Source: Prorocentrum cordatum (Eukaryota; Sar; Dinophyceae; Prorocentrales; Prorocentraceae). From it: a stretch of 64,000 nucleotides of DNA. The stretch is from positions 900,969-964,968 of the forward strand of contig CAUYUJ010020726.1 of assembly GCA_963575745.1 (NCBI GenBank), written 5' to 3'. This document shows, in pieces, positions 14,351-58,572 of the stretch; position 1 is the first letter of the stretch; each line of letters opens with the position of its first letter. The notes under the pieces were generated by a model. It worked only from the letters and a program-made list of their open reading frames with translations, made no database searches and had not been told where the DNA came from. Made by a program: the position numbers and the translations under genes.

Positions 14351-14357
14351 TCCCCCC

Positions 14358-15210
14358 TCGTTCAGGCTTCCCAGGGCAGCCCCCCTGGGCGCGGAACCTA
14401 CTTTTCTTTCGTGGTTCGGTGGTTGTTCGTCCCCCTCGGCCCCCCCTGGTGCTTCGTCCCTCTCGCCCCCCCCCTGAGCCTGAGCCCCAGCTCCCCTGGG
14501 CCACCCCCCCTTGGGAGCCTTCCTCCGTCCAGGCTTCCCAGCTCCCCTGGGCCACCCCTTGGGACCCCCCCTCCGTCCAGGCTTCCTAGGGCAGCCCCCC
14601 TGGGCCGCGGAACCCTTTGGTTTTCTCGTGGCTCGTGGTCCTTCGTCCCCTTCGCCACCCCCTCCCCTCTGAGCCTGAGCCCCAGGTCACCTGGGCCGGC
14701 CCCCCCCCTCCGTCCAGGCTTCCCAGGGCAGCCCCCCTGGGCCGCGGAAACATTCATTTTCGTTGTGGCTCGTGGTGGTTCGCCCCCCTCGGCCCCCTCC
14801 CTGAGCCTGAGCCCCAGCTCCCCACCCACATTCCACTCCTTCCTCCTCCAGGCCACCCCCCCCTTGGGACGCCCCCTCCGTCCAAGGCTTCCCAGGGCAG
14901 CGCCCCCCTTGCTTGGGCCGCCGGGACCCTTTTGTTTCAGTCGTGGCTCGTGGTGCTTCGTCCCTCTCGGCCCCCCCCCCCCCCCCCCTGAGCCTGAGCC
15001 CCAGCTCCCCCAGCTCCCCTGGGCCCCCCCCGCTTGGACCCCCCCCTCCGTCCAGGCTTCCCAGGGCAGCACCCCTGGCTCGTGGTGGTTCGTCCCCCTC
15101 GGCCCCCCCCTGAGCCTGAGCCCCAGCTCCCCTGGGCCACCCCCCCTTGGGACCCCCTCTCCCTCCAGGCTTCCCAGGGCAGCCTCCCTGGGCCGTGTGT
15201 CCAGTCCTTC
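14358..15210 (+). repeat. Same satellite, second block
   Basis: About seven further units with the same core words (GGCTTCCCAGGGCAGCCCCC, GAGCCTGAGCCCCAGCTCCC), more diverged than in the first block and with short C-runs. Confidence 0.9.
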
Positions 15211-18804: not shown

Positions 18805-21250
18805 CTTGACGAAGGACCCAACCATATGCAGGTGTGAGTACCGCAATTGTGATTCCCTTTTTCGGTGGTGATCCCTATGACGCAACGAACCGTGCTAGGG
18901 GTGTGCCGACATGAGTGGCGTGGTACACGACGCGAACGGAAACGATTGACCTGAGTACGTAGGGAGACTGAGCGCGGGTGAATCTGAGCGCGAGTGCGTC
19001 TGACTGTGAATGAATCTGCGTGCGTGCGAGTCTACGTGCACGAATGCGAGTACGCCAACGCATGGTGCAATTGTATATGATTGCTAATAGTTTGTGAATG
19101 ACTGCCTCTGAGTACTCGTGACGCTGGGCGTGGCCGCCGCAAGGAGCTTCCCCGGGGCTCCCCGACGGCATCGCCCGCGCGCCGCGACGCCACCGCGAAG
19201 ATCGCGCCCGCTTCATCCCCTTCTTTTACTCCCTCTTTGCCCGCGCACTCAAAAGTCCAAATCTGTGGGCGCAGCGCAGCGCGGAGCCCCAGCGATGCGC
19301 GCAGGTCGCCCCGGAGGGGTCCCAGCGACGCGCGCAGGTCGTCCGCTGCGCGCAGCAAAATGAGCGAGCTGGCTGGCTGATAGCGGGCAAGGCTCTTGCC
19401 GTTGGGCAGAGCGACGACGGGCGAGCGACGCGCGGAACTCCGACGGCCTCCGGCGGAGGTGTATTGGGTGGGGGAGACGCAACGGACTGCGCCGCGGGGA
19501 CCGTCGGTGGAGCTCCCTATGGGGCCACGAAACGTGTGAGGGATGTGCCGAAATGGGTGTGCGGGACGCATGCGGGCACACCCACTGGGACCTTCGGTTG
19601 GGCTCCCTATGGGGCCGCGGAACGTGTGAGGGATGTGCCGAAATGGGTGTGCGGGACGCATGCGGGCACGCCCACTGGGACCTTCGGTGGAGCTCCCTAT
19701 GGGGCCACGAAATGTGTGAAGGGTGTACCGAAATGGGCGTCCGGGGAGCATGCGGGCACACCCACTTGGGACTTTCGGTGGAGCTTCCTGATGGGGCCAC
19801 GGAAAACGTGTGGGGATGTGCGAAATGGGCTAGTGCGGACGCGTGCGGGCACCGCCCACTGGGACCATCGGTGGAGCTCCTATGGGGCCACGAAATGGCG
19901 TGAGGGATTGTGCCGCATGGATGTGCGGGACCGCATGGCGGGCAGTGCCACTGGGGACCTTCGTTGGAGCTAACTAAGGGGCCACGAACATGGTGTGAGG
20001 GTGTACCGAATATGGGTTGTGCGGGACGCCTATGCGGGCAGACCCACTGGGCCCTTGGCTGAGCGGCCTATGGGGCCACGAACCGTCGTAAGTGTGAACG
20101 GTGAGCCGGCATGGGTGTGCGGGACGCATGCGGGCACACCCACTGGGACTTTCGGTGGAGCCCTCTTATGAGGCCACGAAACGTGTGAACGGTGTGCCGA
20201 AATGGGCGTGCGGGACCCATGTGGGCACACCCATGGAGCTCCCTATGGGGCCACGAAACGTGTGAAAGGTGTGCCAAAATGGGTGTGCGGGACGCATGCG
20301 GGCACACCCACTGTGACCTTCGGTGGGGCTCCCTTACTGGAAGCCCCCGAAGCGTAGTGAGGAATGCGCCGACGCCGTGTTGTGCTGTGCGGGACGCATA
20401 TGCGGGCATTCCCCGGGACCTTCGGTGGAGCCCCCTGGGGGCCACGAAAACGTGGTGAGGGGTTGTGCCGACCTGGGTTGTGCGGACGCAATTGCGGGGC
20501 ACACCACGGGGACTTCGGTGGAGACTCGCTTATGGGGCAACGAGGCGTGCGACAGGGTTTTTTGTACCGAAATGTTGATACATTTTGTTTACGTGACTTT
20601 TGCCTTGTATCGTGTGCGAGGACGAGGACGCATGCGGGCACACCACGGGACCTTCGGTGGCGCTCCTATGGGTCCACGAACAGTTCCGGAAGGGTGTGCC
20701 GAAATGGGTGTGCGGGACGCATGCGGGCACACCCATGAGACCTTCGGTGGAGCTCCTATGGGGCCACGAACCGTGTGAGGGGTGTGCCGTCATGGAGTGT
20801 GCGGGACGCATGCGGGCACACCCACTGGGACCTTCGGTGGAGCTCCCTATGGGGCCACGAAACGTGTGAAGGGTGTGCTACAATGTGCGTGCGGGTCGCA
20901 TGCGGGCACACCCACTGGGACCTTTTGTGGAGCCCTCTTATGGGGCCACGAAACGTGTGAGGGGTGTGCCGAAATGGGTGTGCGGGACGCATGCGGGCAC
21001 ACCCACTGGGACCTTCGGTGGGGCCCTCTTATGAGGCCACGAAACGTGTGAACGGTGTGCCGAAATGGGTGTGCGGGACGCATGCGGGCACACCCACTGG
21101 GACCTTCGGTGGAGCTCCCTATGGGGAGGAGGAGGAGGAGGAGGAGGAGGAGGAGGAGGAGAAGAGGAGGAGAAGAGGAGGAGACGCGGGGACCGTTTCT
21201 TCAAAACGAGGACCCACCACCACAGGATGGTTGGGAAAAACAAGGAGTGA
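18805..21250 (+). repeat. Satellite-cored element, family K (copy 1)
   Basis: The core (about 19480-21120) is a tandem array of about 90-120 base units containing CTATGGGGCCACGAAACGTG, GTGTGCGGGACGCATGCGGG and CACTGGGACCTTCGGTGG. The left flank (18808-18855: GAAGGACCCAACCATATGCA, then GTACCG and TTGTGA) and right flank (21180-21245: TCAAAACGAGGACCCACC) match the flanks of the array in intron 1 of the channel gene. That defines a larger element with conserved ends and a variable core. An unrelated 500-base stretch (about 18930-19470) lies between the first unit and the main array. Confidence 0.75.
21126..21185 (+). repeat. GGA trinucleotide tract at the 3' edge of array K1
   Basis: GGA/GAA units replace the expected continuation of a satellite unit directly after CTCCCTATGGGG. 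A GGA tract is found inside a unit of array K3 (60520-60590) as well. Confidence 0.85.
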
Positions 21251-30639: not shown

Positions 30640-31110
30640 GGGTTCTTGGGGGGTCTTGGGAGCCCTTGGAAGCTTCGTGGGAGCTTCTTGGGAACTTTGG
30701 GAGGCCTCGTGGATGGCTCTGGGTGGGCCCTCTTGGTGGTCTCTTGGGGGGGTCTGCCTGGCCTCTTGGGGGCCTCCTGGTAGCTTCCTGGGGGTCTCTT
30801 GGGGGCCTCTTGGGGCTTTCTTGCGGCCTGTTGGGGGCCTCTTGGGGCTCTCTTGGGGGCTTCGTGGGGCTACTTGGGGGCTTGTAGCGGCATTTCGGGG
30901 GCGTGTTTGGGCGGGAGGCTCAAAATTGTTGTCGCTTCGCGAATCCCCACCAGCCCATCCAGAAACGATGCCCAGAGGAATTGCCTCGATCAGAGAAGTG
31001 GGCAGCACACAGAGGAAGCCATTATGAGACATCTTGGGATATCTTGAGCCATCTTGGAGGTCATTTTGGGCTCTCCCAGACGCTCTTGGAGTCATCTTAA
31101 TCCGTGCCCC
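30640..31110 (+). repeat. Degenerate CTTGGGGCC-type repeat
   Basis: Successive words such as TCTTGGGGGCCTCTTGGGGC with 10-13 base periodicity. An A-rich core lies near 30930-30990. Confidence 0.75.
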
Positions 31111-31184
31111 CCCCCAAGAGGCCTCCATGTGGCTAAAACCTGTGTAGAATCAATGATTAGGCATTCTCGCCGAGGCCTCTTGGA

Positions 31185-31770
31185 GCATCTTGGGTGCATC
31201 TGGGGGGGCTCTTGGGGCCTCTTGGGGGTCTCTTGGGGGCCTCCGGGGGGCCTCTTGGGGGCCTCTTGGGGCCATTTTGGGGCCATCTTGGGACCTCTTG
31301 GGGCTTCCTGGGCGCTTCTTGGGGCCATCTTGGAGGAGATCGATCAAACAAGAGGGGGGGTTTAATTAGCGTCCCCCCTCGGAAGCCCCTAAAATCGCCT
31401 CTTGGACCCCTCTTGGAACGCTCTTGGAGTGCTCTTGGGCGCTCTTGGGGCCGTCTTGGGGCTCTTTTGGGGCTCTCTTGGGGCCCTCTTGGGCCATCTT
31501 GGAAGCCATCTCCAGGCCTCGGATGGCCATCGGAAGCGAAAAGGCGAGAAAGCAAAAATCATTGATTTTCCTTAGGTTTTGGGACGATTTTGGCCTCTTC
31601 GGGGCCTCCTTGGGGAGCTGTTTGGCCACTTGGAGTTATCTTGGGGCCGTCTTTGGGCTTCTTGGAACCATCTTAGGAGCCATCTCGAGCGATCTTGCGC
31701 TATCTTGAGCCATCTTGGAGCTCATCTTGGGTTCTCTGAGGCGCTCTTGGAGCCGTCTTGGGCCATCTTG
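31185..31770 (+). repeat. Degenerate CTTGGGGCC-type repeat (two blocks)
   Basis: Blocks at 31185-31510 and 31570-31770 flank an A-rich segment (GAAGCGAAAAGGCGAGAAAG) that resembles the core at 43640-43690. The repeated block-core-block arrangement supports a composite dispersed unit. Confidence 0.75.
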
Positions 31771-31954
31771 GACGCTCTAACTACCCGCGGCCCCCCCCGT
31801 CCAGGTCCAGGGGAGGGGGTAGGGGGAGGGGTAAACCCCTCCCCAAGGGGGAAGAGGGAGGGGTGGAAGAGGATCTGCTCTAGACCACCTACGCCCAGAG
31901 GGCTGGTGGGATTTCCGTTCAGGTTGCCCCTGTGGACCTCAATCATGGGGCCGT

Positions 31955-33100
31955 CTTGGGGCCTCTTGGACCGTCTTGAGGGTTTCTTGGGCTTCTTGGA
32001 GCGCTCTTGGGCCGTCTTTGAGCGGTCTTGAGGGTCTCTCGGGCCGTCTTGGGGTGATCTTGGGGGCCTCTTGGACCGCCTTGAAAGGTGTGAAAGACGA
32101 AGAGGCGGATATGTTAAAAATGCACGTTTTCCCAAGGGAACGAGACGGTTTTTTTGCTTGTGGGAGCCCTCTTGGGACGCCGCTTAGGGACCTCTTGGGG
32201 CGTCTTGAAGGCCTGTTGGGCCGTCTTGAGGCCATCGTAGGCGCTTGGGGGTGATATTTCGGCGTCTCCCGGCTCTCTTGGACCGTCTGGAGGGCTTCTC
32301 GGGCCCCTCTTGGACCGATTTGGAGCCCTCCTGGGCTCCGAAAAAGAGTTCTTGAGGGTTTCTTGGGCCTTCTTGGAGCGCTCTTGGGCCGTCTTTGAGC
32401 GGTCTTGAGGGTCTCTCGGGCCGTCTCGGGGTGATCTTGGGGGCCTCTTGGACCGCCTTGAAAGGTGTGAAAGACGAAGAGGCGGATATGTAAAAATGCA
32501 CGTTTTCCCAAGGGAACGAGACGATTTTTGCTTGTGGGAGCCCTCTTGGGACGCCGCTTAGGGACCTCTTAGGGACCTCTTGGGGCGTCTTGAAGGCCTG
32601 TTGGGCCGTCTTGAGGCCATCGCAGGCGTTTGGGAGTGATATTTCGGCGTCTCCCGGCTCTCTTGGACCGTCTGGAGGGCTTCTCGGGCCCCTCTTGGAC
32701 CGATTTGGAGCCCTCCTGGGCTCCGAAAAAGAGTTCTTGAGGGTTTGTTGGGCCTTCTTGGAGCGCTCTTGGGCCGTCTTTGAGCGGTCTTGAGGGTCTC
32801 TCGGGCCGTCTTGGGGTGATCTTGGGGGCCTCTTGGACCGCCTTGAAAGGTGTGAAAGACGAAGAGGCGGATATGTAAAAAATGCACGTTTTCCCAAGGG
32901 AATGGGACGATTTTTGCTTGTGGGAGCCCTCTTGGGGCGCCGCTTAGGGACCTCTTGGGGCGTCTTGAAGGCCTGTTGGGCCGTCTTGAGGCCATCGCAG
33001 GCGTTTGGGAGTGATATTTCGGCGTCTCCCGGCTCTCTTGGACCGTCTGGAGGGCTTCTCGGGCCTCTCTTGGACCGTTTGGAGCCCTCCTGGGCTCCGA
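31955..33100 (+). repeat. 380-bp tandem triplication
   Basis: Three consecutive units carry the same series of landmarks: GAAAGGTGTGAAAGACGAAG at 32083, 32460 and 32845, each followed by GCACGTTTTCCCAAGGGAA and later GATATTTCGGCGTCTCCCGG. Unit length is 377-385 bases and identity is high. The words are of the CTTGGGGCC type, so this is a locally amplified version of that repeat. Long open frames across it on the minus strand are by-products. Confidence 0.9.
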
Positions 33101-33105
33101 AAAGG

Positions 33106-43399: not shown

Positions 43400-43830
43400 T
43401 TTCGGATGCTTCTCGGGGTCTCTTCGGAGCGCTTTCGGGGGCCTCTTGGGGGCAGTTTCGGCGCCTCCTGGGAGCTTCTTGGGGTCCTCTTTGCGGCCTC
43501 TTGGGGGCCTCTTGGGGGCCTTCGGGGGCCTCCTGGGAGTCACTCGGGGCCGAGGGCTCGAAATGTCCGCCGTGAGGCCATGATGGGCCGTTTTGGGGCC
43601 CTCTGAGAGGCCTGTTGGATCGTCTTGGGGCGTCGGAAAGCTGAATAGGCGAGAAGGCCAAACATTTGCAACAACAATTCGGACAATCAATGAGTTTGGC
43701 CTCCTGGCGCCCTCTTGGGACCCCTCTTGGAACACTCCTTGGGGTATCTTGGAGGTCTTTTGGGCCGTCGATGGAGCCTCTGGGGGGCTCCTGGGCCCGT
43801 CTTGGGGCCCCTCTTGGGCCCGAGAGAGCC
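43400..43830 (+). repeat. Degenerate CTTGGGGCC-type repeat
   Basis: Two blocks of TCTTGGGG words flank an A-rich core (GGAAAGCTGAATAGGCGAGA). The same arrangement is seen at 31185-31770. Confidence 0.75.
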
Positions 43831-45743: not shown

Positions 45744-48700
45744 GCCTCACATAAGAAAAAAGCACCCTGCCGAAGGACCCAGCCACGTGCAGTTGCGGGT
45801 ACCGTCGTTGTGAGCATCGCTGTCGGCGCCATGCGAACCCTGGCATCTGGGCCTCAGCTGGGGCTCCCTATGGGGTCACGAAGCGTGTGAGGTGTGTGTG
45901 TGTGTGGTGTGTGTGGTGTGTGTGTGGTGTGTGTGTGTGTGTGCGTGCCGTTAAAGCTGTGCGTAGCCCGCCTAGCTTTTAGCTGAAGAGGTTCGCTCTC
46001 GCCCCGCAGATCAAAGTGTGTGTGTGCGTGCCGAAACGAAGCATCGACGCCGAATTGAGGCACCGACTCCATGCAAACTTTGGCATGTGGGCCTTAGTTT
46101 GGGCTCCCTATGGGGCCACGAAGCGTGTGAAGGGTGTGCTAAAACGAGGCACCGACACCATGCGAACCTTGGCTTTGGGGGCTTAGCTGGGGCCCCCCAC
46201 GGGGCCAGGAAAGTTTTGGCCTGGCTGGAGCTCCCCATGGGTCAGCGAAACGTGTGACGGGTGTGCCGACATGAGGCACCGACGCCATGCGAACCCTGGC
46301 ATTTGGGCCTCAGCTGGGGCTCCCGGTGGGGCCACGAAACGTGTCGAAATGAAGCACCGACGCCGCATGTAGGCACCGACGCCATGCGAACCCCGGCATG
46401 TGGGCCTTATTTGGGCTCCCTACGGCGTCACAGTCGTGATGCGCTTTGTGCTTCTGCTTCACAGTCGTGTCGCACTCCGTTTTCCGCCGCGCGCTATCGC
46501 AACCCAGAGGTATTTTTTACACCTACAAGCAGGCGCACCGCCAAGCATCGGTCCACTAGCGATCCGGATGCTTTTGCCAATGCGTCTCACAGATGCACGG
46601 CTTCTGACCTGACCTACGGGCCACGCAACGTCTGCGGGGTGCCGAAGTGAGGCACCGATGCAATGCGAACCTTGGCATGTGGGCCTTGGCTGGAGCCCCC
46701 TTTTATGAGGCCACGGAGCGTGTGAGGAGTGTGCCGAAATGGGGCACCGACGCCATGCAAATCCTGTTACGCGGGCCTTGGGCTGGCACCCCTCATGGGC
46801 CACGAAGCGTGTAAGGGGCGTGCCAAAATGAGGCACCGGCGCCAAGCGAGCCTTGGCATGTAAGCCCTGACTGGAGCTTTCTATGGGGCCACGAAACGTG
46901 TAAGGGGCGTGCCAAAATGAAGCATCGACGCCATGCGAACCCTGGCCGTTGGGCCTTCGGTGGAGCTCCCTATCGGACTACGGAACGTGGGAGGGGTTTG
47001 CTGTAGTGGACATGCGGAGGACAGGGGCTTGGATGGGAGGAGCCAGGAGCGAGCGGGAGGAGGAGGTGCGACGCGGGGCACTGTCTCCTCAAAGCGAGGA
47101 CCCAACATCACGGGAATGGTCGAGAAACAAATCCGATACCGATGTGTTCCCCTCGTTTTCACTCGGGCCCTTCTGTAGGGCCCAGCCGCTGTCGGAAGGA
47201 TTTGCTTCAGAATCGGTGTCCGAAACCATCCAGGATAGGTCTAAGGAGCAGCGATGTCGCTATTGAATACGGTCCCTCCGAAGGCTTGCCACTTGGAGCT
47301 CCAGAGCCGCGGCCCTGGCAGCAGCGGGGACGAGCCTCCGAAGAAGGAGAGCCCAGTGGTGCTCCGCATCGTGGAGCCGATCTTCGTCCGCCTGCGCTGG
47401 CGCGGGTGCGTGCTGGTCCAGGACTCGCAGAAGATGCTCGATGGGCGCTTCCGCGAACGCAACATGCTGCTCGCGGAGAAGATGGAGCCCAGCGACGGCG
47501 GCGGCATCATGGCCGCCGTAGTGCGGGGGATTCGCGAGAAGCTCAGCATTCCGCGCGAGGCGTTGCTGCAGGACGGCGTGCTCCGCTATCGGCCGGACGC
47601 CTACCAGTTCGAGATCGAGCAGATCGATTCACCTTCCTACCCGGGCATGGTCTCGGTCTACCGCACGCACCACGTGCAGGTCGACATCCTCGACGGCGGT
47701 CTGCCCGCGTTCGCGGGCCGTGGGTTGCCGGAGTGCAACCCCTTCACCACTCTGGAGACCACCCCGCTCGGCACCACCACAAACTTCTGGAAGTGGAGCA
47801 GCATCGAGGAGGCGCTGGGTGACAGAGTGGTGAAATTCCCACCCAAGGCGCTGTCCGCGAGCTGCCCTCGGTCGACCTCCGCAGATGGCGGCGCGCCCCT
47901 GGGAACGGGAACGCGCATGCTGGGGCCCGAGGACCTCCCCAGCGAGGAGGCATTGGCGGGCTACCTGCGGTCCGCTGGGATCGACCCCACGAAGTACGGG
48001 GTGGGGAAAGCGAAGCCCCTGTCGTCGCTCATCAAAGAGGTACAGAAGGGCGACTCGCGCCTGGAGTGGACGGAGAGCCCGCCAAGCCTGCGGCGGGTGG
48101 TGGAGCCCGTGTTCATGCAACTGCGCTGGGGCAAGCTGGTGCTGGTGGAGGCGGAGCAGCGTTTCACAAACGGAACCTGCCGCAAGCGCAACATGCTACT
48201 GGCGGAGAAGATGTCACCGGAGGACGCCGACGCCGCCGACACGTGCATCCGCGGCCTCTTCGAAGAGCTGAACCTGCCGGAGGACCTGTCGCCCCCGAAG
48301 GACTACTTCCGCTTCATGCAGGAGTCCTACTGCTGCTTGGCAGAGCACCTCGAATCGCCCTCTTATCCGGGCCTCGCCTGCGTGTACACGACGCACTACT
48401 GTAGCGTGCAGCTGGTCGATTCAGGTCTCAGCAGGCTCCGGGAGATCGGGATCTTGGAGGAGGAGTTCGAGACCCCCGAGGACGACAAAGTCAACGTCTG
48501 GAGGTGGACCGACATCAAGGAGGCCCGCGAGAGCAAGGCGAAGGGCTTCCCGGCCTTCGAGGCGTTCTCCTCCTCGGACGCGAGCTCACCCCAGAGCCAA
48601 GAGGCCTCATTTGAGCCCGTGGCCAGCATCCCCACGGACCCGGCCCAGATGTGCGTCTTCCTCGAGATCGGCGGCGTGAACGTTAGCTTGTGGGGCAAAT

Positions 48701-51700
48701 TCGTGCACGATTCGCTGCTGTCTCTGATGGACGAGGTGGAAAAGGGTGTCTCTCGCCTGGAGAGGGACGTAGAGACAGGGAAGCTGCGGCGTGTGATGAC
48801 CTCCAGCCACGTGCATTTCAACCTGTCGAGCGCGGCGGCGGGGCGCCCTGGCGCCCCGGCAGGGCCCGGCTCACACTTCGGGCGGGACGAGGCCATGGAC
48901 CTGGTGCGGTACCGGAGCGACCTCGAATGCTTCGAGGTGGAGCACGTCAACGTTGCGGCGTACCCTGGCCTGCCGTGCTTCCACCAGACGCGCCAGATGC
49001 ACTTCGCACCCCGCAGCAGCGAGCACCCCGCGGACGCGCCCGGGGACGGCGACGCCGCTGCGGCGGAGGCGGCCCCGCGGAGCGACGGCGTCGGCAAGGA
49101 GGGCTCCGCCGGCGCCGGTCTCGCCCGCCTGCTCCCGTCCCTCATCGGGCGCCGCAGCGCGAGCTTCCCCGGCGACGCCGCACCGCCCCTCAAGCAAGCG
49201 GAGAGCACGAGGAGCGCTGCCACGGAGGGGCCCAAGGCTGAGCCCGACGGCGTGGCCCTGGCGCCGTGGCTGCGCAGCGAGGACGCCCTCGGCCGCTTCC
49301 TGGAGGAGCACGGTGTCAGCACTCGGCTCTTCGGCGTGGGTTCCGCGAAGACAGTAGCGGAGCTCCTGGCGGAGCTCCGCGCGCAGGCTTGCCACTTGGA
49401 GCTCCAGAGCCGCGGCCCTGGCAGCAGCGGGGACGAGCCTCCGAAGAAGGAGAGCCCAGTGGTGCTCCGCATCGTGGAGCCGATCTTCGTCCGCCTGCGC
49501 TGGCGCGGGTGCGTGCTGGTCCAGGACTCGCAGAAGATGCTGGATGGGCGCTTCCGCGAACGCAACATGCTGCTCGCGGAGAAGATGGAGCCCAGCGACG
49601 GCGGCGGCATCATGGCCGCCGTAGTGCGGGGGATTCGCGAGAAGCTCAGCATTCCGCGCGAGGCGTTGCTGCAGGACGGCGTGCTCCGCTATCGGCCGGA
49701 CGCCTACCAGTTCGAGATCGAGCAGATCGATTCACCTTCCTACCCGGGCATGGTCTCGGTCTACCGCACGCACCACGTGCAGGTCGACATCCTCGACGGC
49801 GGTCTGCCCGCGTTCGCGGGCCGTGGGTTGCCGGAGTGCAACCCCTTCACCACTCTGGAGACCACCCCGCTCGGCACCACCACAAACTTCTGGAAGTGGA
49901 GCGGCATCGAGGAGGCGCTGGGTGACAGAGTGGTGAAATTCCCACCCAAGGCGCTGTCCGCGAGCTGCCCTCGGTCGACCTCCGCAGATGGCGGCGCGCC
50001 CCTGGGAACGGGAACGCGCATGCTGGGGCCCGAGGACCTCCCCAGCGAGGAGGCATTGGCGGGCTACCTGCGGGCCGCTGGGATCGACCCCACGAAGTAC
50101 GGGGTGGGGAAAGCGAAGCCCCTGTCGTCGCTCATCAAAGAGGTACAGAAGGGCGACTCGCGCCTGGAGTGGACGGAGAGCCCGCCAAGCCTGCGGCGGG
50201 TGGTGGAGCCCGTGTTCATGCAACTGCGCTGGGGCAAGCTGGTGCTGGTGGAGGCGGAGCAGCGTTTCACAAACGGAACCTGCCGCAAGCGCAACATGCT
50301 ACTGGCGGAGAAGATGTCACCGGAGGACGCCGACGCCGCCGACACGTGCATCCGCGGCCTCTTCGAAGAGCTGAACCTGCCGGAGGACCTGTCGCCCCCG
50401 AAGGACTACTTCCGCTTCATGCATGAGTCCTACTGCTGCTTGGCAGAGCACCTCGAATCGCCCTCTTATCCGGGCCTCGCCTGCGTGTACACGACGCACT
50501 ACTGCAGCGTGCAGCTGGTCGGTTCAGGTCTCAGCAGGCTCCGGGAGATCGGAATCTTGGAGGAGGAGTTCGAGACCCCCGAGGACGACAAAGTCAACGT
50601 CTGGAGGTGGACCGACATCAAGGAGGCCCGCGAGAGCAAGGCGAAGGGCTTCCCGGCCTTCGAGGCGTTCTCCTCCTCGGACGCGGGCTCACCCCAGAGC
50701 CAAGAGGCCTCATTTGAGCCCGTGGCCAGCATCCCCACGGACCCGGCCCAGATGCGCGTCTTCCTCGAGATCGGCGGCGTGAACGTTAGTTTGTGGGGCA
50801 AATTCGTGCACGATTCGCTGCTGTCTCTGATGGACGAGGTGGAAAAGGGTGTCTCTCGCCTGGAGAGGGACGTAGAGACAGGGAAGCTGCGGCGTGTGAT
50901 GACCTCCAGCCACGTGCATTTCAACCTGTCGAGCGCGGCGGCGGGGCGCCCTGGCGCCCCGGCAGGGCCCGGCTCACACTTCGGGCGGGACGAGGCCATG
51001 GACCTGGTGCGGTACCGGAGCGACCTCGAATGCTTCGAGGTGGAGCACGTCAACGTTGCGGCGTACCCTGGCCTGCCGTGCTTCCACCAGACGCGCCAGA
51101 TGCACTTCGCACCCCGCAGCAGCGAGCACCCCGCGGACGCGCCCGGGGACGGCGACGCCGCTGCGGCGGAGGCGGCCCCGCGGAGCGACGGCGTCGGCAA
51201 GGAGGGCTCCGCCGGCGCCGGTCTCGCCCGCCTGCTCCCGTCCCTCATCGGGCGCCGCAATAATTGCAGCACGACGAGCGTGGCCTCTGACTACGGCACG
51301 CCGCTCCGCAGCACTCGCAGCTCGGAGGTCTCCGTCATGCCCTTAAAGACGTACGAGTACGACGAGTGCCAGTCGCGTCTGCTCCCCCTCTACGACCAGC
51401 TGCGAAGCCTACGCAGCAATCTGCGGTTCAAGATGATCGCGCATGCCGATTGCACGAGCGAATTTTCGGACCAGGCCGTGGCGTGCTCGTGCATGATCCA
51501 ATCGATTCGCAATGTGAACCCGCTGAACGCCACGTTCCAGTGCTGTTTCACAGTATTCCTCGAGTGGCTGGACTCCTCCGCAGCGGGCCTTCCCGAGGGT
51601 AACCTCGGGGAGGGAGTGCATGGGGTCCTGAACATCCCCGAGATCGAGCTGCAGAACACCCTGGCCACCAGCAAGAAGGTCCAATCGCCTCCCCAGGTCT

Positions 51701-54700
51701 TGGTATGCAACTCTTGGAATACTCTCGGCATTAGGAGCAGCATCGCTGGTATATTCTCGGTCGGCAACCAGCAGTATCCGGCACAATCCCATTCAACCTG
51801 GTTTAATCCCGCCTGGGCCTAGTCCGGTCCAATCCAGCTCAGTCCCGAGCTTGAGCAGGGCAGCCGGGCTCAATAGCCATCGCTCTGAAGAATCCTTAGG
51901 AATTCCTAGGAATCCTTTGGAATTCCTAGGAATCCTCAGGAATTCCTGGGAATCCTTAGGAATTCCTAGTAATCCTTAGGAATTCTTATGAATCCTTAGG
52001 AATTCCTAAGACCTTCCAGGAGTTGCCTCCTAACAGGTCGTGGACCCAGCCACGGGCCACGTGGCGTGCACGATACGCTACGAGGCGCTCGTGCAGATGG
52101 AGCTCGACATGCGCCTCTTCCCCTTCGACGCCCAGCGCCTCGTCCTCGTGCTGGGCCTGCGGGCCCGGCGGGACCGGCGCCGCGCGCTGGCGTGCCAGTC
52201 GTGCCTCGCGGACGCGCAGATCCGCCTGGAGGAGTGGCGCGTCATGCGCACCTTTGCGCACAGCGACTCTCCGGACGTCGAGGCAGAGAAAAAGGGGCAT
52301 TCGGAGGTGGATCGACCTCCTAGCCTGACACGTCGATTAAGGAATTGGCCGTTGTCGGTTCGCGAGACGGCGTCGCGGCCGTCATGTTTGCGGGTCCAGG
52401 TCCGTCGGTTTCGGTCCCAGGCCGTTTTCACTAAGGGGAGGTTTGCTAAAAGGAGTTTGGTCCACCGCCGAGGCATACGCATAATTTCGCGGAGGTCCGC
52501 GCGGATTTCTCGGATCGGCGCTTGGGCCCCCCTTTGGCGGGGTCGCAGCGCCAGTCCAAGAGAAATCCGCAAGGGGCTCCGAGACGTTGTGCTTGTGCCG
52601 CTGCTCCCGCTTCAGGACGGGCGCGCCCGCATCCAGTTCGGCGTGATGATATCCCGGCGCTATGGGTATTACGTCGTGACCGTCTTCACCACCCTGCTGG
52701 CCATTGCCACCTCGAGTTTCGCGGCCTACGTGCTGCCCGCCGCGGAGGTGTGGGACCGTCTCCGCTTCGGGATCGCCATCCTCTTCGCGCAGATCACCTT
52801 CCGCCTCGCGCAGGACAACAAGCTTCCGAAGGTGGCCTACGCCACGATCTTCGATATGTACGCAATGTTCTGCCAGGTCATGGTCTTGGGGATGATACTC
52901 GGCTTCATCCTGGTCAGCATGTGCGACCAGGACATCTTTGGCCATCGTGCTCGCCATGCTACCGGCACCTTGGACCGGGCCTGTGGCGCCCTGCTCTTCT
53001 GCATGTGGTCGCTCGGGCACCTCGCCGGGCTGCAGAGAGTCATACGCCAGCGGCGCGAGCAGCGCTGTTCGTTGCTGCAGCTGTCGAGCTCCAGCCAGGG
53101 CTCACCTCAGGCGGCGGAGGCGGACGCACTTCAGAAACAGCTGGCCACCTTACAAGCGGGCCTCCACTATCGTGAGTCTACGCTCGAGCGAAGGTCTGTC
53201 ATGAGCCGCCGGGTGAGCCAGGCGGTGTCCCTGGACGTGCACGTGTGGCTGCTTCACGACATCAACCCCCTGACTGGCACTTTCGAGTGCAAGTTCTCCG
53301 TCACCCTCGGATGGCTCCACGAGGGGGCCGTGGGCCTGCCGGAGGGGGCGCCGCTGACGGCCCAGCAGCTCAGCCTGGTCGACGTCCCCGAGCTGGATGT
53401 GCACAACAAGGTCGAGCTGGTGTTGGAGGAGGGCCCCCGCGTGTGCGTGGCCTGCTCTTCCAGTGGCCGGGTCCTCTCGACGTCTCGGTTCCACGCCAAG
53501 CTGCAGATGAACTTGAATTTGCGGGAGTTCCCTTTCGACTCCCACACCCTGCCCGTCCACATCATCATGCCTCACGAGAAGGATCGGGGGTGGACAGACC
53601 TCCTAACAGTGACACGTCGATTAGTGAATTGTCCGTTTTCGGTTCTCGAGAGGGCGCCGCGGCCGTTATTTTCCAGGCTTGCGCCCGCCAGGTTTGGGCC
53701 CGAGGTCGTTTTCACTAAACCACGTTTTACTAAAGGGAGGTCTGTCCATCTCCGAAAGGATGAGAGGCGCGCCTTCGTGCACTGCGGCGGCCAGCTGGGA
53801 GAGAGCGCCCAGATGCTGGACGAGTGGTTCGTCAGAGGCCACACGGTGGACCCAGACACGGGCAACGGCGTGCCGACGGCGTCGCTCCAGATCCACCTGC
53901 AGCGGCGCTCCTTCTTCTACGTGGTGAGCGTGATGGCTGTCCTGCTGGGGATCTCGTCGTTGGTGTTCACCGTGTATGTGATTCCGATGGACTCCAGCGG
54001 CATGGATTTCGCAAATCAAGGGAAGATCTTGGTGCCCCTCGTCATGACCCTCCTCGCGTTCAAGCTCTTGACTGCGTCAGGCAAGCTGCCCACCGTTGCT
54101 AGCGCCACCAGCTTTGATCGGTACATGATTGCATGTGAGATGATGTTGCTGGGGACCATCGTCATCTGTACCGCGTCTCGTGGCTTTGCGCGACTCTATG
54201 GAGTCGGCTCAGTGCAGTCTTACCGCACCTACGCCGCCATGATATCCGCTCTCTTGTGGGTGGCGTTCAACGTCTACTTCGCGCTCAGCGTCTGGCTCGC
54301 GCGGCGGAGCAACGATCGCCAGACGACCGCCGCGCTCACGTGCACACGGACCCACTGGAGCAGCGATGCGCCCGGCTTCGAGGAGCAGTGCGCGCAGCTG
54401 CAGCACGTGAGACCCGACGCGGGCGACATCCAGGGAAGCGCCTCCTCGGCGGTGATGCTGCGCATCGTGATGAAGAGCATCCACTCGGTGAACCCGGCCG
54501 GCGGCACGTTCCAGGCCGAGCTCGTGGCGAGGCTCGAGTGGCTCAGCCCGGGTGCGGTGGGCATCGCCGCGGGCTCCGAGCTGTCCAGCGAGCAGCTGGG
54601 GCGCCTGCAGCAGCCCAAGCTCATGGTCCAGAACGCCATCGGCTGCTCTGCCAAGGTGCTCGACGGTGCGCGCGTGGTCGACGGTGCCACTGGCCACGTC

Positions 54701-57700
54701 ACCTGCCAGGTGCAGATCAAGGCGTCGGTGCAGATGCGGCTTCACTTGGCACAGTTCCCGTTCGACGAGCAGGTCCTCGAGGTGGTGGTCATGCTCCCAG
54801 ACCCAGGCGATCGGCACCGCAGCCTGGTGATCGAGCACCTGGATTGCGCAGACGTGGCGCGGGTGGGCGAGTGGATCGTGCTCGGAGACGTCTCAGCATG
54901 TGGCCGTCGGATGGGCATATCGTGGGCTTCCGTTGGAGTGAAGATCAAGCGCTCCAGCCGCTACTATGTCTTGAATATGGTGTCGCTGTGCTTGTGGTGT
55001 GTCGCCGGCTTCTCGTTGTACGCCCTTGATGTCAGCGATTTCCAGAATAGGGGGAAAATCTTGGTCGGCGTGTTGCTCGTTCAGATTGTTGCCAAGCTCG
55101 CCGTATCCAGCAAGCTGCCCCGCATCGCCCGGACTACCGCTTACGATCGAGTGTCGTTGAACAATTTGGCGATGCTCTTCTGCGTAGGCAGCGGCGCGGC
55201 ACTCTGCTGCGCCCTGAACCAGCTGGAGGGCTGGGAGGAGTCCAGCAAGGTCTGCGATTCGAGCGTCGCTTGCGCTGTCTTCCTGGCTTGGGTGCTCATG
55301 AACGCCGTAACTGCGCTCCAAGTGCACAGGTCGCTGAGGGGAAGCCGCCGCGCCATGCGGGAGCTGGACGCGAACCATCGCAACGCCCAGGCCGTCGACC
55401 AGGCTTCCATAGGGCGGGAGGTAGCCCTCATGCGCCCCTGTGTGTTGCCAGAGTCGCCCGTGTCTCGTCAGGCGAACTCTAAACATGAACGGTTCAGCAG
55501 TGTCGACATCAGCAAGCAAGACCAGAGGGCGGCCATCAATGTCGGTGCCAAGGTCCAGCTCATTTCTGACGTGGACACCAGCTCCGGCACGGTGGAGTCA
55601 AAATTCCATGTCTTTCTGGATTGGTTTGACACTGCAGGGGTGCACCTGCACCAGCAGAGGCGCACCAACAGCAGTGCGCTGCCAGCCGAGGAACAGGCGG
55701 TAGTGCCAAACATCAAGGTGCGCAATGCAATAAAGATCATCATGGAGGATTGCTCCGATGTCAAAGTCTTGGACGCCGCAACGGGCCACTGCTCCTGCCA
55801 CATTCAGTTCCACGCGCGCCTCTACAACAGGTTCGACCTGCGCAGCTTCCCCTTTGACCGCCAGAGGCTGGAGATCGAGCTCGCGCTCGAGAATTGCCCG
55901 GACCGCTTCCTGGTGGGAAGTTGCTGTGAGAGTACGGACCGGGGCTCGAGGCTCGACGACTGGAAGCTGCAGGACGTCTCGCTCAGTGTCGACCACGAGT
56001 GGCCTCTCCCAAGGCTCGCGACCATCACGATGTTGGTGGAGCGGCGGTCTCGTTTCTACCTGGTGCAGGTCATTGGCGTTCTCACCTGCCTGACCACGCT
56101 GGTGTTCTCCCTCTACCTGGTCAGGGCAAAGGACCTGGGCAAGAGGATGCCAGACGCTCTCAAGGTTGTTCTCACCATGACGACCTTCCGCTTCTTCGTG
56201 GAGCACCGCCTGCCCAAGGTGCAGCACTGGACACCGTTCGACGTCTACTACGTCTCCTGCCAGGCGCTCATCGCCTGCATCATCGTCTGCTTCGTCGTGG
56301 CCAAGCTGAGCGACCCGCTCGGCACCCTCGAGTGCCAGACCCGGCAGAGCGAGCACCGCGTGCTGGCGTGGATCTTCTCCGCGTGGGCGCTGTGGCTCTC
56401 AGGAGGAAAAGAAACACACAGACACAATTCATCGCCGATGTCCCAGCACATATGGGAAAACATGGGAAATGGTGGGGGGGGAAGACAAACACCCAGCAAC
56501 TATAGGAAAACCTTGGGGGATCTTTCTATCTGTGTGTGTGTTTATTCGTGCGTCCCAGGGCCCCTTCAGGCTCCTCGGCTGCGGCCTCGCCTCCCTGCTC
56601 CTGAAGTGCCTGGGGCCGCGCGGGGGCGTGCAGCGGCACCCCGGGGCTCCGCTGGGCCCGCTGGCTCGGCTCCGAGCGCTGCCGCTCGCGCACGGCAGGG
56701 AGCCCGAGCGCCGCGGCAGCACGGATCGGCTGCCGTGGGCCGCGAGGCCGTCGGCGGGTCTGGAGACGCAGGTCGTCTCCATCGCCTTCCGCATATGGCT
56801 GGTGCGCAACGTGGACCTGGTGAGCGGCACCTTCGAGTGCAAGTTCCGCGTCCTGCTCGAGTGGCTGGACGCGGACGCGAAGGGCCTGCCCAAGGGGAAG
56901 AAGGCCAAGCTGCCGGTGCCCGACATCGCGGTCACCAACGCAATCCAGTCGCAGATTCTGGACGCCAGCTCCGCGCCCGAGGTGGTCGACCCGGAGACGG
57001 GGCACCTGGCCGCCCAGAGGCTCTACAAGTGCACGGTGCGGATGGATCAGGAGGTGCGGCTCTTTCCCTTCGACTGGCAGTGGCTCGCGATCTCCGTGAG
57101 CCTGCGCGGCGGGGGCGAGCTCGGGCGGCCGTTCTTCTTCCAGTACTGCGAGGTCGAGGGGCAGCTGCAGCTGGACGAGTGGACTGTCCACGGCCAGCCC
57201 GCATTTGCCACCCTCGACAGGCACGAGGCCCCGAGCCTGGAGGATACCGTGATGTGTGGCATCCTCATCAGGCGCGAGGCGCGCTACTACGTCATAAACA
57301 TCATGCTCATGCTCGGTCTCATCACGTCCCTGTGCTTCTCCGTCTACACCGTCAAGGTCCAGCTCTTCTGGGAGCGCGCCGAGATATTCCTGGGCATCTT
57401 CCCAGTGATCATCGTGTTCAGGATGTCCGTCCAGGGCAAGTTGCCGAAAGGCGGCTCCTCCACGCAGTTTGACTGCTACGCGAACGCGTGCACGATCCTG
57501 TTCTTGGTGATCGTGTTCGAGGCGATGCTGGCGTCCTTTGCCACGGTCGCTCCCGAGTGGGTGTCGTCGACGTGCTCGCAGGACGACGCGACGGAGCTGA
57601 TCTCCACCCTGGAGGGGTGGTTCTGGTACCTGCTCGGCACCGTCTGGATCGCGTGGAACGCGCGCTTCGCGGTGCAGTCGTGGCGTTTCTGGCGGCTGCA

Positions 57701-58572
57701 TCCCCTGGGGGCCCTGGGCAGCGGGGTCCTCGCCCGGACGCAGGACTCCGCAGAGGGCACCTGTGCACCACCACCATGCCTGGCTGGGGCCACCCGGGGC
57801 CCTGGAAGGGTGGATGGACGCTCCTGGCCTCGGCCAGGGGGGCGCGTACAGTCAACGCGCAGAGTATGGACAAACGGCTTTTTCAAGGGCACCCTTGGGT
57901 CCTTGCCTGCCTCAGCCTCTGCGGCCCGTCCCTGGCAATTTCGCCGCCCAGAATACTGCAGCTTCGGCCTCCAAGGGTCTTGCGTCCTCACCACGCGCCC
58001 TTACTGGACGTGTTCACCGTACGCCGTGCCGGCGCCCAGGATTGCCCAAGCCGGGCACGGTGGTGGTGCGCAGGCGCCCTCCGCGCGAGGACAGCGAGTG
58101 GGTCGCCGGCTGCTCCGCCGCCGAGCCAGACTGCAACGGCCTCGCGCCGCGCTTCTCCGCCCGGGCGGCGTCGCAGCGAGCCCAGCGGCAGAGCATCGCC
58201 GACGCCGAGCAGGCCGCGCTGGAGCCTGGCGGCGCGCAGGAGGCTTGGCATCGCTCGGGCGTGTGCATTTTTCTTTCGGCGAGGACCATCGAGGAGGATC
58301 CTTGACCATTTGGCGAAAAAGCCACGCACGAAACCCCCAAAAAAAAACACAGGGAATGGACGTCCGAGCGATGGCCAGGAGGGGGGGAAGGAGGTGGAGG
58401 ACAGGGAGGAGGAGGGCGAAGGTGAGGAGGAGGAGCAGGAGAGGAGGAGGAAGTGGAGGAGGAGGAGGAGGAGGAGGACCCCCTCCCCATCTCCGACGCC
58501 GCACAAGCCGCGCTGGAGCTTGGTGGCGCGCAGAATCGAGGGGCGAAGAACCACCCCGATGGCGATCAATGA
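45531..58572 (+). CDS. Giant fused protein: duplicated Nudix-like array plus five concatenated pLGIC subunits
   Basis: My model uses exons 45531-45743, 47284-51696, 52037-52273, 52616-53581, 53759-56394, 56570-57764, 58051-58239 and 58534-58572. This totals 9,888 bases, about 3,295 residues, and reading phase is kept at every joint. The start is chosen at 45531 for its ACCATGG context and because exon 1 encodes the same linker module that recurs between repeat units. Residues 72-1397 hold two near-identical 701-residue-period units with Nudix-like modules. Residues about 1465-3190 hold five pLGIC subunits with FPFD motifs at about 1570, 1926, 2276, 2640 and 2987. The likely product is a plasma- or endomembrane channel of about 20 membrane segments. 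Channel family assignment is strong, the Nudix-like call is moderate, and single-chain pentamer assembly is inference. A polyprotein cut into subunits, as in some dinoflagellate genes, is an alternative. The last two joints are uncertain and the stop could be at 58814-58816 instead. Confidence 0.75.
45744..47283 (+). other. Intron 1 (GC-AG, 1,540 bases)
   Basis: Donor CAG|GCCTCA and acceptor CCGAAG|GCTTGCC; AGGC is repeated at both edges. Joining gives LAELREQ|ACHLELQ, exactly as in the uninterrupted copy at 49370-49400, so the boundaries are supported by an internal paralogue. The body is mostly the satellite-cored element K2 (45767-47130), with GT microsatellites at 45890-45945. Apparent reading frames in this interval are not coding. 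Confidence 0.8.
45767..47130 (+). repeat. Satellite-cored element, family K (copy 2) within intron 1
   Basis: The array units contain GAGGCACCGACGCCATGCGA, CCTGGCAT and GCTCCCTATGGGGCCACGAA. The left flank (CGAAGGACCCAGCCACGTGC then GTACCG and TTGTGA) and right flank (CTCAAAGCGAGGACCCAACA) match the flanks of K1 at 18805-21250. The units are less regular than in K1, and the element fills most of the intron. Confidence 0.75.
47284..49386 (+). CDS. Exon 2, repeat unit 1: three Nudix-like modules
   Basis: The 701-residue unit has three related modules. Each has a short helical part (pattern LxxYLxxxGIDxxxYGVGKAK then LIKEVQKGDSRLE) followed by a beta-rich part. Module 1 carries RFRERNMLLAEKM then AAVVRGIREKLSI, and SPSYPGMVSVY. 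Module 2 carries CRKRNMLLAEKMSPEDADAA then RGLFEELNLP, and SPSYPGLACVY. Module 3 (LWGKFVHDSLLSLMDEVEKG, then AYPGLPCFHQT) has lost the RGxxEEL stretch. RGxxEEL resembles a degenerate Nudix box (REUXEEXGU). The leading Gly and full glutamate set are not all kept, so ligand binding is more likely than catalysis. The role is inferred. Confidence 0.6.
49387..51261 (+). CDS. Exon 2, repeat unit 2: near-identical duplicate of unit 1
   Basis: The unit repeats 47284-49158 at an exact offset of 2,103 bases (701 codons). I see only about ten base differences, giving about six residue changes: S/G in FWKWSSIEEA, S/A in LRSAGID, Q/H in FMQESY, D/G in QLVDSGL, S/G in SSDASSP and C/R in AQMCVFLE. Unit 1 ends with a 76-residue linker that carries the helical module of exon 1. 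Unit 2 passes at 51262 into a different linker (NNCSTTSVASDYG) leading to the channel part. Confidence 0.8.
51262..51465 (+). CDS. Linker between the Nudix-like array and the channel part
   Basis: About 68 residues (SVMPLKTYEYDECQSRLLPL, then YDQLRSLRSNLRFKMIAHAD) with a predicted helical, charged character. It contains no recognised domain and connects the soluble array with the first ligand-binding domain. Confidence 0.6.
51466..53070 (+). CDS. pLGIC module 1
   Basis: The ligand-binding domain begins MIQSIRNVNPLNATFQCCF, then FLEWLDSSAAGLPEG. After intron 2 it continues VVDPATGHVACTIRY and the Pro-loop MRLFPFDAQ at 52118. The Cys residues of metazoan Cys-loop receptors are absent. After intron 3, TM1 is YYVVTVFTTLLAIATSSFAA, TM2 is LRFGIAILFAQITFRLA, the TM2-TM3 loop is NKLPKVAYATIFDMY (a family hallmark), and TM3 follows as MFCQVMVLGMILGFILV. 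TM4 is ACGALLFCMWSLGHLAGL, then a basic end. This is a complete subunit of about 355 residues. Confidence 0.85.
51697..52036 (+). other. Intron 2 (GT-AG, 340 bases) with a 20-base tandem repeat
   Basis: CAG|GTCTTGG at the donor and CAG|GTCGTGG at the acceptor form a direct repeat CAGGTC. Splicing gives SPPQ|VVDPATGH, which aligns without gaps to modules 3-5. A donor six bases later (GTATGC) would also keep phase and add two residues. Positions 51889-52013 are six or so copies of GAATCCTTAGGAATTCCTAG. Confidence 0.75.
52302..52470. mobile_element. TIR introner-type element, family A (copy 4) in intron 3
   Basis: Termini CGGAGGTGGATCGACCTCC and GGAGTTTGGTCCACCGCCG. The interior is closest to the intergenic copy at 8243-8411. 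Confidence 0.85.
52486..52590. mobile_element. TIR element, family O (copy 3) in intron 3
   Basis: The left arm GTCCGCGCGGATTTCTCGGA pairs with the right arm CCAAGAGAAATCCGCAAGGG. Relatives lie at 11685-11805 and 18256-18385. Confidence 0.7.
53212..54320 (+). CDS. pLGIC module 2
   Basis: The ligand-binding domain has VHVWLLHDINPLTGTFECKF, then GWLHEGAVGLPEG. The Pro-loop LREFPFDSH is at 53528. Intron 4 interrupts the strand after IIMPHEK. The domain resumes DERRAFVHCGGQLGESAQML, then DEWFV. TM1 is FYVVSVMAVLLGISSLVFTV, TM2 is GKILVPLVMTLLAFKLL, the loop is SGKLPTVASATSFDRY, TM3 is EMMLLGTIVICTA and TM4 is AAMISALLWVAFNVYFALSV. All four membrane segments are present, with no Cys-loop cysteines. 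Confidence 0.85.
53582..53758 (+). other. Intron 4 (GA-AG, 177 bases), an almost pure introner element
   Basis: AAGGAT occurs at 53579-53584 and again at 53756-53761. Between them lies one family A element (53585-53754). Splicing at AAG|GAT...AAG|GAT uses the duplicated target both as a GA donor and an AG acceptor, and restores PHEKDERRAFVHC. The intron is a multiple of three and open, so the element would also be translatable if retained. Confidence 0.85.
53585..53754. mobile_element. TIR introner element, family A (copy 5) forming intron 4
   Basis: The left end CGGGGGTGGACAGACCTCC and right end GGAGGTCTGTCCATCTCCG match at 17 of 19 positions. A 6-base target duplication (AAGGAT) flanks it. 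The interior is nearly identical to the intergenic copy at 3788-3941. Confidence 0.9.
54439..55365 (+). CDS. pLGIC module 3 (no intron)
   Basis: The ligand-binding domain starts MLRIVMKSIHSVNPAGGTFQ, then LEWLSPGAVGIAAG, VVDGATGHVTCQVQI and the Pro-loop LAQFPFDEQ at 54755. TM1 is YYVLNMVSLCLWCVAGFSLY, TM2 is GKILVGVLLVQIVAKLA, the loop is SSKLPRIARTTAYDRV, TM3 is LAMLFCVGSGAALCCAL and TM4 is SVACAVFLAWVLMNAVTAL. The module is contiguous in the genome and so is the best template for defining the others. Confidence 0.88.
55526..56640 (+). CDS. pLGIC module 4
   Basis: It begins INVGAKVQLISDVDTSSGTV, then FLDWFDTAGV, VLDAATGHCSCHIQF and the Pro-loop LRSFPFDRQ at 55847. TM1 is FYLVQVIGVLTCLTTLVFSL, TM2 is PDALKVVLTMTTFRFF, the loop is EHRLPKVQHWTPFDVYYVSC, and TM3 is CQALIACIIVCFVVAKL. 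TM4 (VLAWIFSAWALWL joined to LGCGLASLLLKCL) is split by intron 5. The ligand-binding loop after FLDWF departs from the GLPxG pattern of modules 1, 2 and 5, so ligand contacts probably differ. Confidence 0.85.
56395..56569 (+). other. Intron 5 (GC-AG, 175 bases), family B introner element
   Basis: GCTC is present at the left edge (56395-56398) and again directly after the right edge (56570-56573), as a target duplication. The intron begins with the duplicated GC and ends CCTTCAG. Splicing gives WALWLLGCGLASLLLKC, a continuous TM4, and corrects the one-base frame difference between the flanking exons. The body (56399-56569) has the family B blocks CACACAGACACAATT, a G-run with AAGACAAACACCCAG, and GTCCCAGGGCCCC. 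Confidence 0.85.
56399..56569. mobile_element. Introner-type element, family B (copy 4) forming intron 5
   Basis: It begins TCAGGAGGAAAAG and ends GGGCCCCTTCAG. Intergenic relatives lie at 41720-41868, 42694-42832 and 63807-63869, and a partial one at 8053-8183. Confidence 0.85.
56757..57690 (+). CDS. pLGIC module 5
   Basis: It begins VSIAFRIWLVRNVDLVSGTF, then LLEWLDADAKGLPKG, VVDPETGHLAAQRLY and the Pro-loop VRLFPFDWQ at 57063. TM1 is YYVINIMLMLGLITSLCFSV, TM2 is AEIFLGIFPVIIVFRMS, the loop is QGKLPKGGSSTQFDCY, TM3 is CTILFLVIVFEAMLASF and TM4 is GWFWYLLGTVWIAWNARFAV. It is the last module; only a short tail follows. Intron-free apart from its upstream linker. Confidence 0.88.
57765..58050 (+). 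other. Intron 6 (boundaries tentative), bounded by inverted repeats
   Basis: The ends of this interval carry an inverted repeat of about 24 bases: GCACCACCACCATGCCTGGC at 57765 and GCCGGGCACGGTGGTGGTGC near 58050-58070. The best phase-consistent choice is TGT|GCACCACC to GCCCAAG|CCGGGC, a GC-AG intron of 286 bases that leads to PGTVVVRRRPPREDSEWVAG. A GT-AG choice (57763-58073) leads into a less protein-like frame. The element nature is clear, but the exact splice sites are not. Confidence 0.5.
58240..58533 (+). other. Intron 7 (GA-AG, tentative) containing a family C element and a GAG tract
   Basis: The upstream exon ends GCGCAG in a 39-base word (GACGCCGAGCAGGCCGCGCT onward) that is repeated with five changes at 58495-58533. 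Splicing 58240-58533 keeps frame and gives QAALEPGGAQ|NRGAKNHPD then a stop. A shorter intron (58240-58378) uses the CAGGAGG target duplication of the family C element, and would read an Arg/Glu-rich tail to 58816. The sequence cannot decide between them. Confidence 0.45.
58244..58376. mobile_element. TIR element, family C (copy 3) with CAGGAGG target duplication
   Basis: Left end TTGGCATCGCTCGGGCGTG, right end GACGTCCGAGCGATGGCC. CAGGAGG lies at 58237-58243 and again at 58376-58382. The interior is nearly identical to 11218-11348. Confidence 0.85.

Follow-up and report, generated by a model that had tools for sequence, protein, structure and literature searches.

A five-module pentameric ligand-gated ion channel chain in the dinoflagellate Prorocentrum cordatum suggests a natural linked channel

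The DNA analyzed here (the window) is a stretch of 64,000 nucleotides from Prorocentrum cordatum (contig CAUYUJ010020726.1), in which five modules of the pentameric ligand-gated ion channel (pLGIC) type, termed M1 to M5, follow one another on the forward strand (Table 1). By ORF scanning of the window, frame 2 was found to be free of stop codons from 52034 to 57472 (1812 codons), an open frame that takes in M1 from its second exon onward, M2, M3, and M4 to its last helix. Comparison of the window with P0001, the deposited protein of this gene, revealed that splicing connects this long frame to the start of M1 and to M5, and a four-intron model reproduced P0001 residue for residue through position 2393 of 2450. 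A donor for intron 2 at 52283 was ruled out; P0001 uses 52274. At the M4/M5 junction, enumeration gave several in-frame donor and acceptor alternatives, with the deposited one among them. A sequence-only reading of this stretch had placed the five-subunit chain at 51466..57690; the five modules do lie there, but the gene is larger, with P0001 starting at 49537 and ending beyond 57690. The five FPFD positions given in that reading were all exact when compared to the codon positions, and its spacings between them (356, 350, 364 and 347 residues) are identical in P0001. Rfam and tRNA scans of the whole window detected nothing.

Table 1. Positions of the modules, introns and array copies in the window.
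Feature	Position	Strand	Details
Array copy 1	47279..49156	+	99.4% identity with copy 2 by blastn self-comparison; shares its open frame
Array copy 2	49382..51259	+	two repeats of small helical cap plus degenerate Nudix, and a third, more degenerate; in frame with channel
Module M1	51466..53059	+	exon pieces to 51696, 52037-52273 and from 52616; binding domain, FPFD 52118, pore helix 52754-52828
Module M1 end	53059	+	flank following TM4
Intron 1	51697..52036	+	GT-AG; inverted ends match 16/20, without chance control
Intron 2	52274..52615	+	GA-AG; 173-column repeat (75.7%) common to introns 2 and 3; inverted ends not seen (10/20)
Module M2	53204..54307	+	split by intron 3; FPFD 53528, pore helix 54014-54091, with one extra residue ahead of LP motif
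Intron 3	53582..53758	+	GA-AG; inverted ends 18/20, introner-like
Module M3	54434..55339	+	FPFD 54755, pore helix 55046-55120
Module M4	55511..56621	+	FPFD 55847, pore helix 56141-56215; intron 4 falls within TM4
Intron 4	56395..56569	+	GC-AG per deposited model; other in-frame junctions possible
Module M5	56748..57695	+	FPFD 57063, pore helix 57372-57446, TM4 end ~57695

Beyond what the sequence-only reading had described, the chain is predicted to begin with a degenerate Nudix-fold array. ORF 47245-51822 holds both copies of this array, and copy 1 lies outside the deposited P0001. An AlphaFold model of 49303-51258 matched Nudix/MutT hydrolases, in a comparison that covers mainly residues 26-222, and the relative P0046 was assigned Pfam NUDIX at 6.3e-7. 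Nudix-box remnants were located at 49600 and 50326. The Nudix box REUxEE is not intact: RE is replaced by RG, RA or RI in 13 of 13 boxes from seven proteins (a pattern-search count, which leaves boxes missed by the pattern uncounted), and the EE pair is retained in 11 of these. A PDB profile search with the Nudix repeat detected nothing significant (best 0.42).

The modules had been read as pLGIC subunits, and this assignment was confirmed by several types of evidence. With the window sequence, the Pfam membrane domain scored over the cut-off for M1 (4.7e-7) and M4 (4e-8) and under it for M2, M3 and M5. For the latter three, orthologues were informative: Neur_chan_LBD was detected in P0013 (5.7e-17 for the whole protein), with its best stretch at 1048-1186 in M2, and in four stretches of P0009 (9.8e-24), and comparison of P0009 to PDB sequences matched M3 with GLIC (4.8e-7) and M5 with DeCLIC (2.4e-8). 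The predicted structure displayed the pLGIC subunit fold for M3 and M4. Pairwise identity among the five window modules was 26.6-33.9%, as calculated from a chain with 3 residues extra in M1 and 4 missing in M4. The Pro-loops in the window read FPFDAQRL, FPFDSHTL, FPFDEQVL, FPFDRQRL and FPFDWQWL; thus, the FPxD-loop proline is present in all five modules, and five FP[FW]D motifs were found in each of 12 full-length proteins. The second Cys-loop cysteine after FPFDxQx is absent from the five window motifs, which places the modules in the Cys-less type, outside the strict Cys-loop receptors.

Fourteen further relatives were identified: 11 with exactly five modules, and three that represent the same chain truncated at its 5' end. 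Two relatives carry Trinity transcript names, and in four the ORF takes up 91-97% of a contig of about 8 kb; therefore, it is very probable that a single mRNA covers the five modules. Stops between modules, which the sequence-only reading had set as grounds for refuting a single chain, were not found, and with transcript-type records spanning the modules, a tandem array of separate genes was ruled out. In a tree of 60 modules (including M5 of P0007 and M5 of P0002, a gene model that loses frame after TM1 of this module), every position from M1 to M5 formed one clade, and module order is therefore older than the split of these dinoflagellates. Thus, the earlier claim of a single chain whose subunit order is fixed was supported on two grounds, the transcript-type records and the orthology of modules by position across dinoflagellate proteins. 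No intact single-subunit dinoflagellate channel was detected among 16 matches to a seven-row module profile, in a word-based search that distant ones may escape. Four of the 16 were inspected (two apparent fragments of a single split gene model from one species, one fish nicotinic subunit and one unnamed single-subunit pLGIC), and the remaining 12 were judged from the match table alone.

Conservation was compared across 12 aligned proteins, with M5 of P0002 and P0007 included. By this approach, the pore helices were found to be the most conserved part of each of the five modules, with TM4 (0.47-0.63) clearly lower. Each module's pore helix was found to have its own fixed, position-specific residues in a comparison made without P0002 M5, with conserved basic residues at 2' or 6' in M1, M3 and M4 and a glutamate at 2' in M5. 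No conserved motif was detected in the linkers (45-91 residues) between modules in the 12 proteins; the four linkers hold 2, 0, 0 and 0 invariant residues, and both of these residues adjoin the following domain. In the predicted model, the long linkers 2 and 3 have low confidence (pLDDT <50 at 186-226, 535-546 and 561-589). The two most conserved binding domains are those of M1 and M5, and the arginine-rich segments G.RARRD..R and PDGRAR of M1 are invariant.

Taken together, we favor, with a probability of about three in four, that this one polypeptide is a natural single-chain heteropentamer with five non-equivalent ring positions and one pore, to which we add a proposed M1/M5 ligand site and a Nudix sensor; one-ring assembly, ligand, gating, selectivity and orientation are what we infer. 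The five modules would fold as a single ring round the pore. With four membrane helices per pLGIC module, the binding domains would all come to lie on one side of the membrane, and each linker would lead from the end of one TM4 into the binding domain that follows. As the pore residues are specific to each module and retained in it, the ring would be asymmetric by selection. The M1-M5 contact would be the only non-covalent seam of the ring and may form the main ligand site, with the invariant M1 arginine segments binding an acidic or phosphorylated ligand. The Nudix array, missing one catalytic glutamate of the Nudix box, may sense a metabolite resembling a nucleotide, in the manner of NUDT9-H in TRPM2.

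The alternative raised in the sequence-only reading, a cleaved polyprotein, is improbable and is weakened by the present results. Under this alternative, cuts between modules would release five subunits in 1:1:1:1:1 supply for a conventional heteropentamer, as proposed for the multi-coding-unit RuBisCO and HSP70 genes of P. cordatum. Genes of this type do exist in P. cordatum, where, according to PMC10666404, each RuBisCO gene model has one to three units of >95% identity, separated by spacers that share motifs. The dinoflagellate RuBisCO II and HSP70 polyproteins resemble the present gene in having several units per transcript without stops, and the length and low confidence of linkers 2 and 3 are what one would expect of cleavable spacers. 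By contrast to those near-identical units of variable number, with motif-bearing spacers and products thought to be released, the units here share 28.5% identity on average, every complete chain has five modules, and three of the four linkers have no invariant residue. Less probable again is an intact chain whose modules are shared between rings, or an interlocking of two chains; laboratory concatemers sometimes loop out, and the linkers are long enough to permit such arrangements, but five modules with similarly constrained, position-specific pore helices fit one ring best. Least probable is a non-conducting receptor or scaffold that keeps the pLGIC fold for ligand sensing, with its pore shut by the charged 2' and 6' residues of M1, M3, M4 and M5, as the pore helices are the top-conserved part of every module, far over TM4.

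Within the single-chain heteropentamer reading, a tentative and rather doubtful form is an inverted channel in the plasma or an organelle membrane, with the five binding domains and the Nudix array in the cytosol and gating by an intracellular metabolite, as a pLGIC counterpart of TRPM2. By inspection, no obvious signal peptide was seen in five of seven N-termini, and thus the binding domains may face the cytosol; a hydrophobic segment ahead of the M1 membrane part was likewise absent from 11 of 12 full-length proteins. Against this form, the gene models of P0005 and P0007 have hydrophobic N-terminal extensions upstream of the Met that matches the P0009 start, and P0007 has a hydrophobic segment at 781, within an insertion missing from P0005. 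In 48 of 58 modules, net charge was higher in the C-flank of TM4 than in the M3-M4 loop (means +2.0 vs -1.2; M5 of P0002 and P0007 left out of the count, and P0002 M5 out of the per-module means), the reverse of the pattern in two nicotinic controls. Also counting against the inverted form are the seven modules with the opposite pattern (three were ties) and the mean charge of M2, which goes the other way (M3-M4 loop +0.9, C-flank +0.25). The controls, too, weaken it, as they are few: P0024 (0 and +1) runs in the same direction as the dinoflagellate modules, and the ELIC loop is neutral. N-glycosylation sequons were at about chance level in the 12 proteins and say nothing on orientation.

These results suggest that nature has built a linked five-subunit channel, based on dinoflagellate relatives that keep the same five modules in the same order. 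Arrangement versus gating in pLGICs has so far been studied with artificial concatemers, and a conserved natural one would be an evolved answer, showing the asymmetry fixed by selection at five positions, the location of the ligand site and the linkers used. The Nudix array suggests a concrete set of ligands. The finding is also an example of a dinoflagellate pLGIC, remote from any nervous system.

To our knowledge, known pLGICs assemble from separate subunits, and linked ones are known from the laboratory alone. Engineered concatemers of nAChR and GABA-A receptors join TM4 of one subunit to the next binding domain, the same linkage as found here; these are laboratory constructs of known subunits, whereas the dinoflagellate chain is natural and conserved. 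No report of a natural pLGIC concatemer was found among the matches listed from the open-access literature, and the word stems dinoflagellat, Symbiodinium, tandem, concat and fused do not occur in the main text of PMC4795631. The Cys-less Pro-loop channels GLIC, ELIC and DeCLIC, the group with the best structural and sequence matches to the modules, have the same binding-domain sandwich, FPxD Pro-loop, four helices and LP-type M2-M3 loop; the present gene differs in that it joins five diverged modules into a single chain, preceded by a Nudix-like array. TRPM2 differs in its unrelated channel fold and in its Nudix domain (NUDT9-H), which is C-terminal and not an N-terminal array; the channel part here is pLGIC and not a TRP channel domain. 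In Nav and Cav channels, according to PMC6259924, domain duplication likewise gave one pseudo-symmetric chain. These channels have an unrelated fold and are four-fold and voltage-gated; the five-module chain would be the pLGIC parallel of their four-domain fusion.

By protein search, the spliced chain, in which an N-terminal array of degenerate Nudix folds is followed by five pLGIC modules (M1 to M5), matched the deposited protein P0001 with 100% identity over 100% of the query and two small differences at intron junctions. P0001 is labelled Prorocentrum cordatum, and its displayed nr label opens with Polarella glacialis, which we take as a labelling overlap. All five FPFD (Pro-loop) motifs were present in the window where the sequence-only reading had placed them. 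The modules of the window are pairwise 26.6-33.9% identical, and recent duplication is therefore ruled out as their source.

Features of the gene and its surroundings (window positions)
Feature	Position	Remark
P0001 exon	49537-51696	
P0001 exon	52037-52273	
P0001 exon	52616-53581	
P0001 exon	53759-56394	
P0001 exon	56570 onward	
Stop-free frame	52034-57472	introns 2 and 3 within
Nudix-array coding region, first copy	47279-49156	tandem copies 99.4% identical over 1878 bases, one open frame
Nudix-array coding region, second copy	49382-51259	contains start of P0001
Inverted-end stretch (intron or intron-like)	51697-52036	16 of 20 bases, no chance control
Inverted-end stretch (intron or intron-like)	53582-53758	18 of 20 bases, no chance control
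Inverted-end stretch (intron or intron-like)	57750-58100	18 of 20 bases, no chance control
Tandem-repeat arrays 5' of gene	12948-14817, 19497-21126, 30644-33103, 43437-43537	units of 11 to 385 bases

The tandem copy of the Nudix-array region reflects either duplication in the very recent past or an error of assembly. Introns 2 and 3 have a 173-column repeat in common, and the inverted-end stretches look like introner elements, for which enrichment is reported in P. cordatum (PMC10666404, consulted in part). Further tandem-repeat arrays were detected elsewhere in the window. The short proteins P0046, P0047 and P0038 each have a small helical cap and a Nudix-like domain; P0046 shows a weak match to Pfam Ish1 in its cap, and in P0038 an apparent hydrophobic anchor precedes both parts.

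Gene models of P. cordatum draw on transcripts as well as ab initio prediction (PMC10666404, consulted in part); thus P0001, assumed to derive from that annotation, is by itself no proof of one transcript. Independent support came from orthologue records. Among 15 proteins found by search with the chain, 12 had exactly five FP[FW]D motifs, spaced 336-382 residues apart, and the others had 4, 3 and 3, since they start inside M1, M2 or M3; M5 was present in all three. P0011 and P0013 carry Trinity transcript names. Contigs filled to 96-97% by the ORF (P0006, P0009 and P0012; 7.7-8.0 kb) or to 91% (P0008) are probably cDNA, given intron-rich genomes. Named sources were P. cordatum, Polarella glacialis, Symbiodinium natans and Symbiodinium sp. 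KB8. P0005 and P0007 are near-duplicates of each other. A second P. cordatum protein, P0002, is 62% identical and has five FPFD motifs; its deposited model loses the M5 frame after TM1. One of the gene models behind P0004, P0007 and P0018 carries fused leucine-rich repeats.

The fixed subunit order proposed from sequence was supported by a maximum-likelihood tree built on the 60 modules of 12 proteins (some long branches were flagged by the program). For each position, a single branch (bootstrap 100, SH-aLRT 99-100) set its modules apart from all others, a grouping recovered in 100% of 200 bootstrap trees. Across five chosen proteins, same-position identity averaged 39-58% compared to 28.5% (maximum 36.2%) between positions within one protein, only M4 overlapping this range (lowest value 33.4%), and these identities gave no sign of concerted evolution. 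The five-module order is thus older than the split of these lineages and has been retained since.

Majority identity, as a mean across the aligned columns of the 12 proteins, was 0.86-0.89 for the pore helices of every module, 0.47-0.63 for TM4 and 0.39-0.46 for linkers. Pore residues were fixed by module: R2' (12/12) and F9' (11/12) in M1, K2' and G6' in M3 and K6' and L9' in M4 (all 12/12), and E2' and P9' in M5 (all 11 sequences read); M2 numbering is unsure because an extra residue precedes its LP motif. Such a pattern would be expected with five different helices lining one pore. By the same measure, the binding domains of M1 (0.79) and M5 (0.83) were most conserved (others 0.59-0.66); these modules lie at the two ends of the five-module sequence, yet a closed ring would bring them together at its seam. 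Two M1 stretches are invariant (G863, R865, A866, R867, R868, D869, R872 and P902, D903, G904, R905, A906, R907; P0009 numbering), and an anionic ligand may bind at these arginine-rich stretches.

Nudix domains usually work in the cytosol. Ahead of the M1 membrane part, no segment exceeded the hydropathy threshold in 11 of the 12 full-length proteins, several of which lack a complete N-terminus; P0007 had one such segment at its start and another within an insertion. No hydrophobic start was seen in five of seven N-termini inspected; P0005 and P0007 had one, lying upstream of the Met that corresponds to the start of P0009. The TM4 C-flank was more positive than the M3-M4 loop in 48 of 58 modules (3 ties, 7 opposite), with M2 modules outside this trend by mean charge. 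Among controls, two nicotinic receptors showed the reverse, GLIC and DeCLIC loops were positive, ELIC was neutral and the comparison protein P0024 resembled the chain modules. By the positive-inside rule, this bias would place the binding-domain side in the cytosol; such inverted mounting is put forward tentatively, as a testable reading less likely than not rather than as a result.

Neither a natural pLGIC concatemer nor a dinoflagellate pLGIC study was found among the matches listed in the open-access literature or in the consulted part of the main pLGIC evolution paper. Deposited orthologues (among P0004, P0007 and P0018) bear misleading names such as HTR3A and CLASP, the architecture being apparently unremarked by annotation within the literature searched. 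The pLGIC fold itself is known; within the reach of these searches, a natural pentamer in one chain, fronted by a Nudix array, is new.

Alternatively, the product may be a polyprotein cleaved between modules, as with the multi-coding-unit RuBisCO and HSP70 genes of P. cordatum, where the spacers are stated or presumed to be cut out (PMC10666404, in the part consulted). This is less favoured. Linkers are 45-91 residues long (36 linkers, nine proteins) and, over 12 aligned proteins, hold two invariant residues in all, both adjoining the next domain. By contrast to P. cordatum RuBisCO, with units >95% identical, one to three of them in each gene model, and motifs common to its spacers (same source and part), the chain has dissimilar units in constant number and linkers nearly without invariant residues, differences that favour a chain that would last over one that is cleaved.
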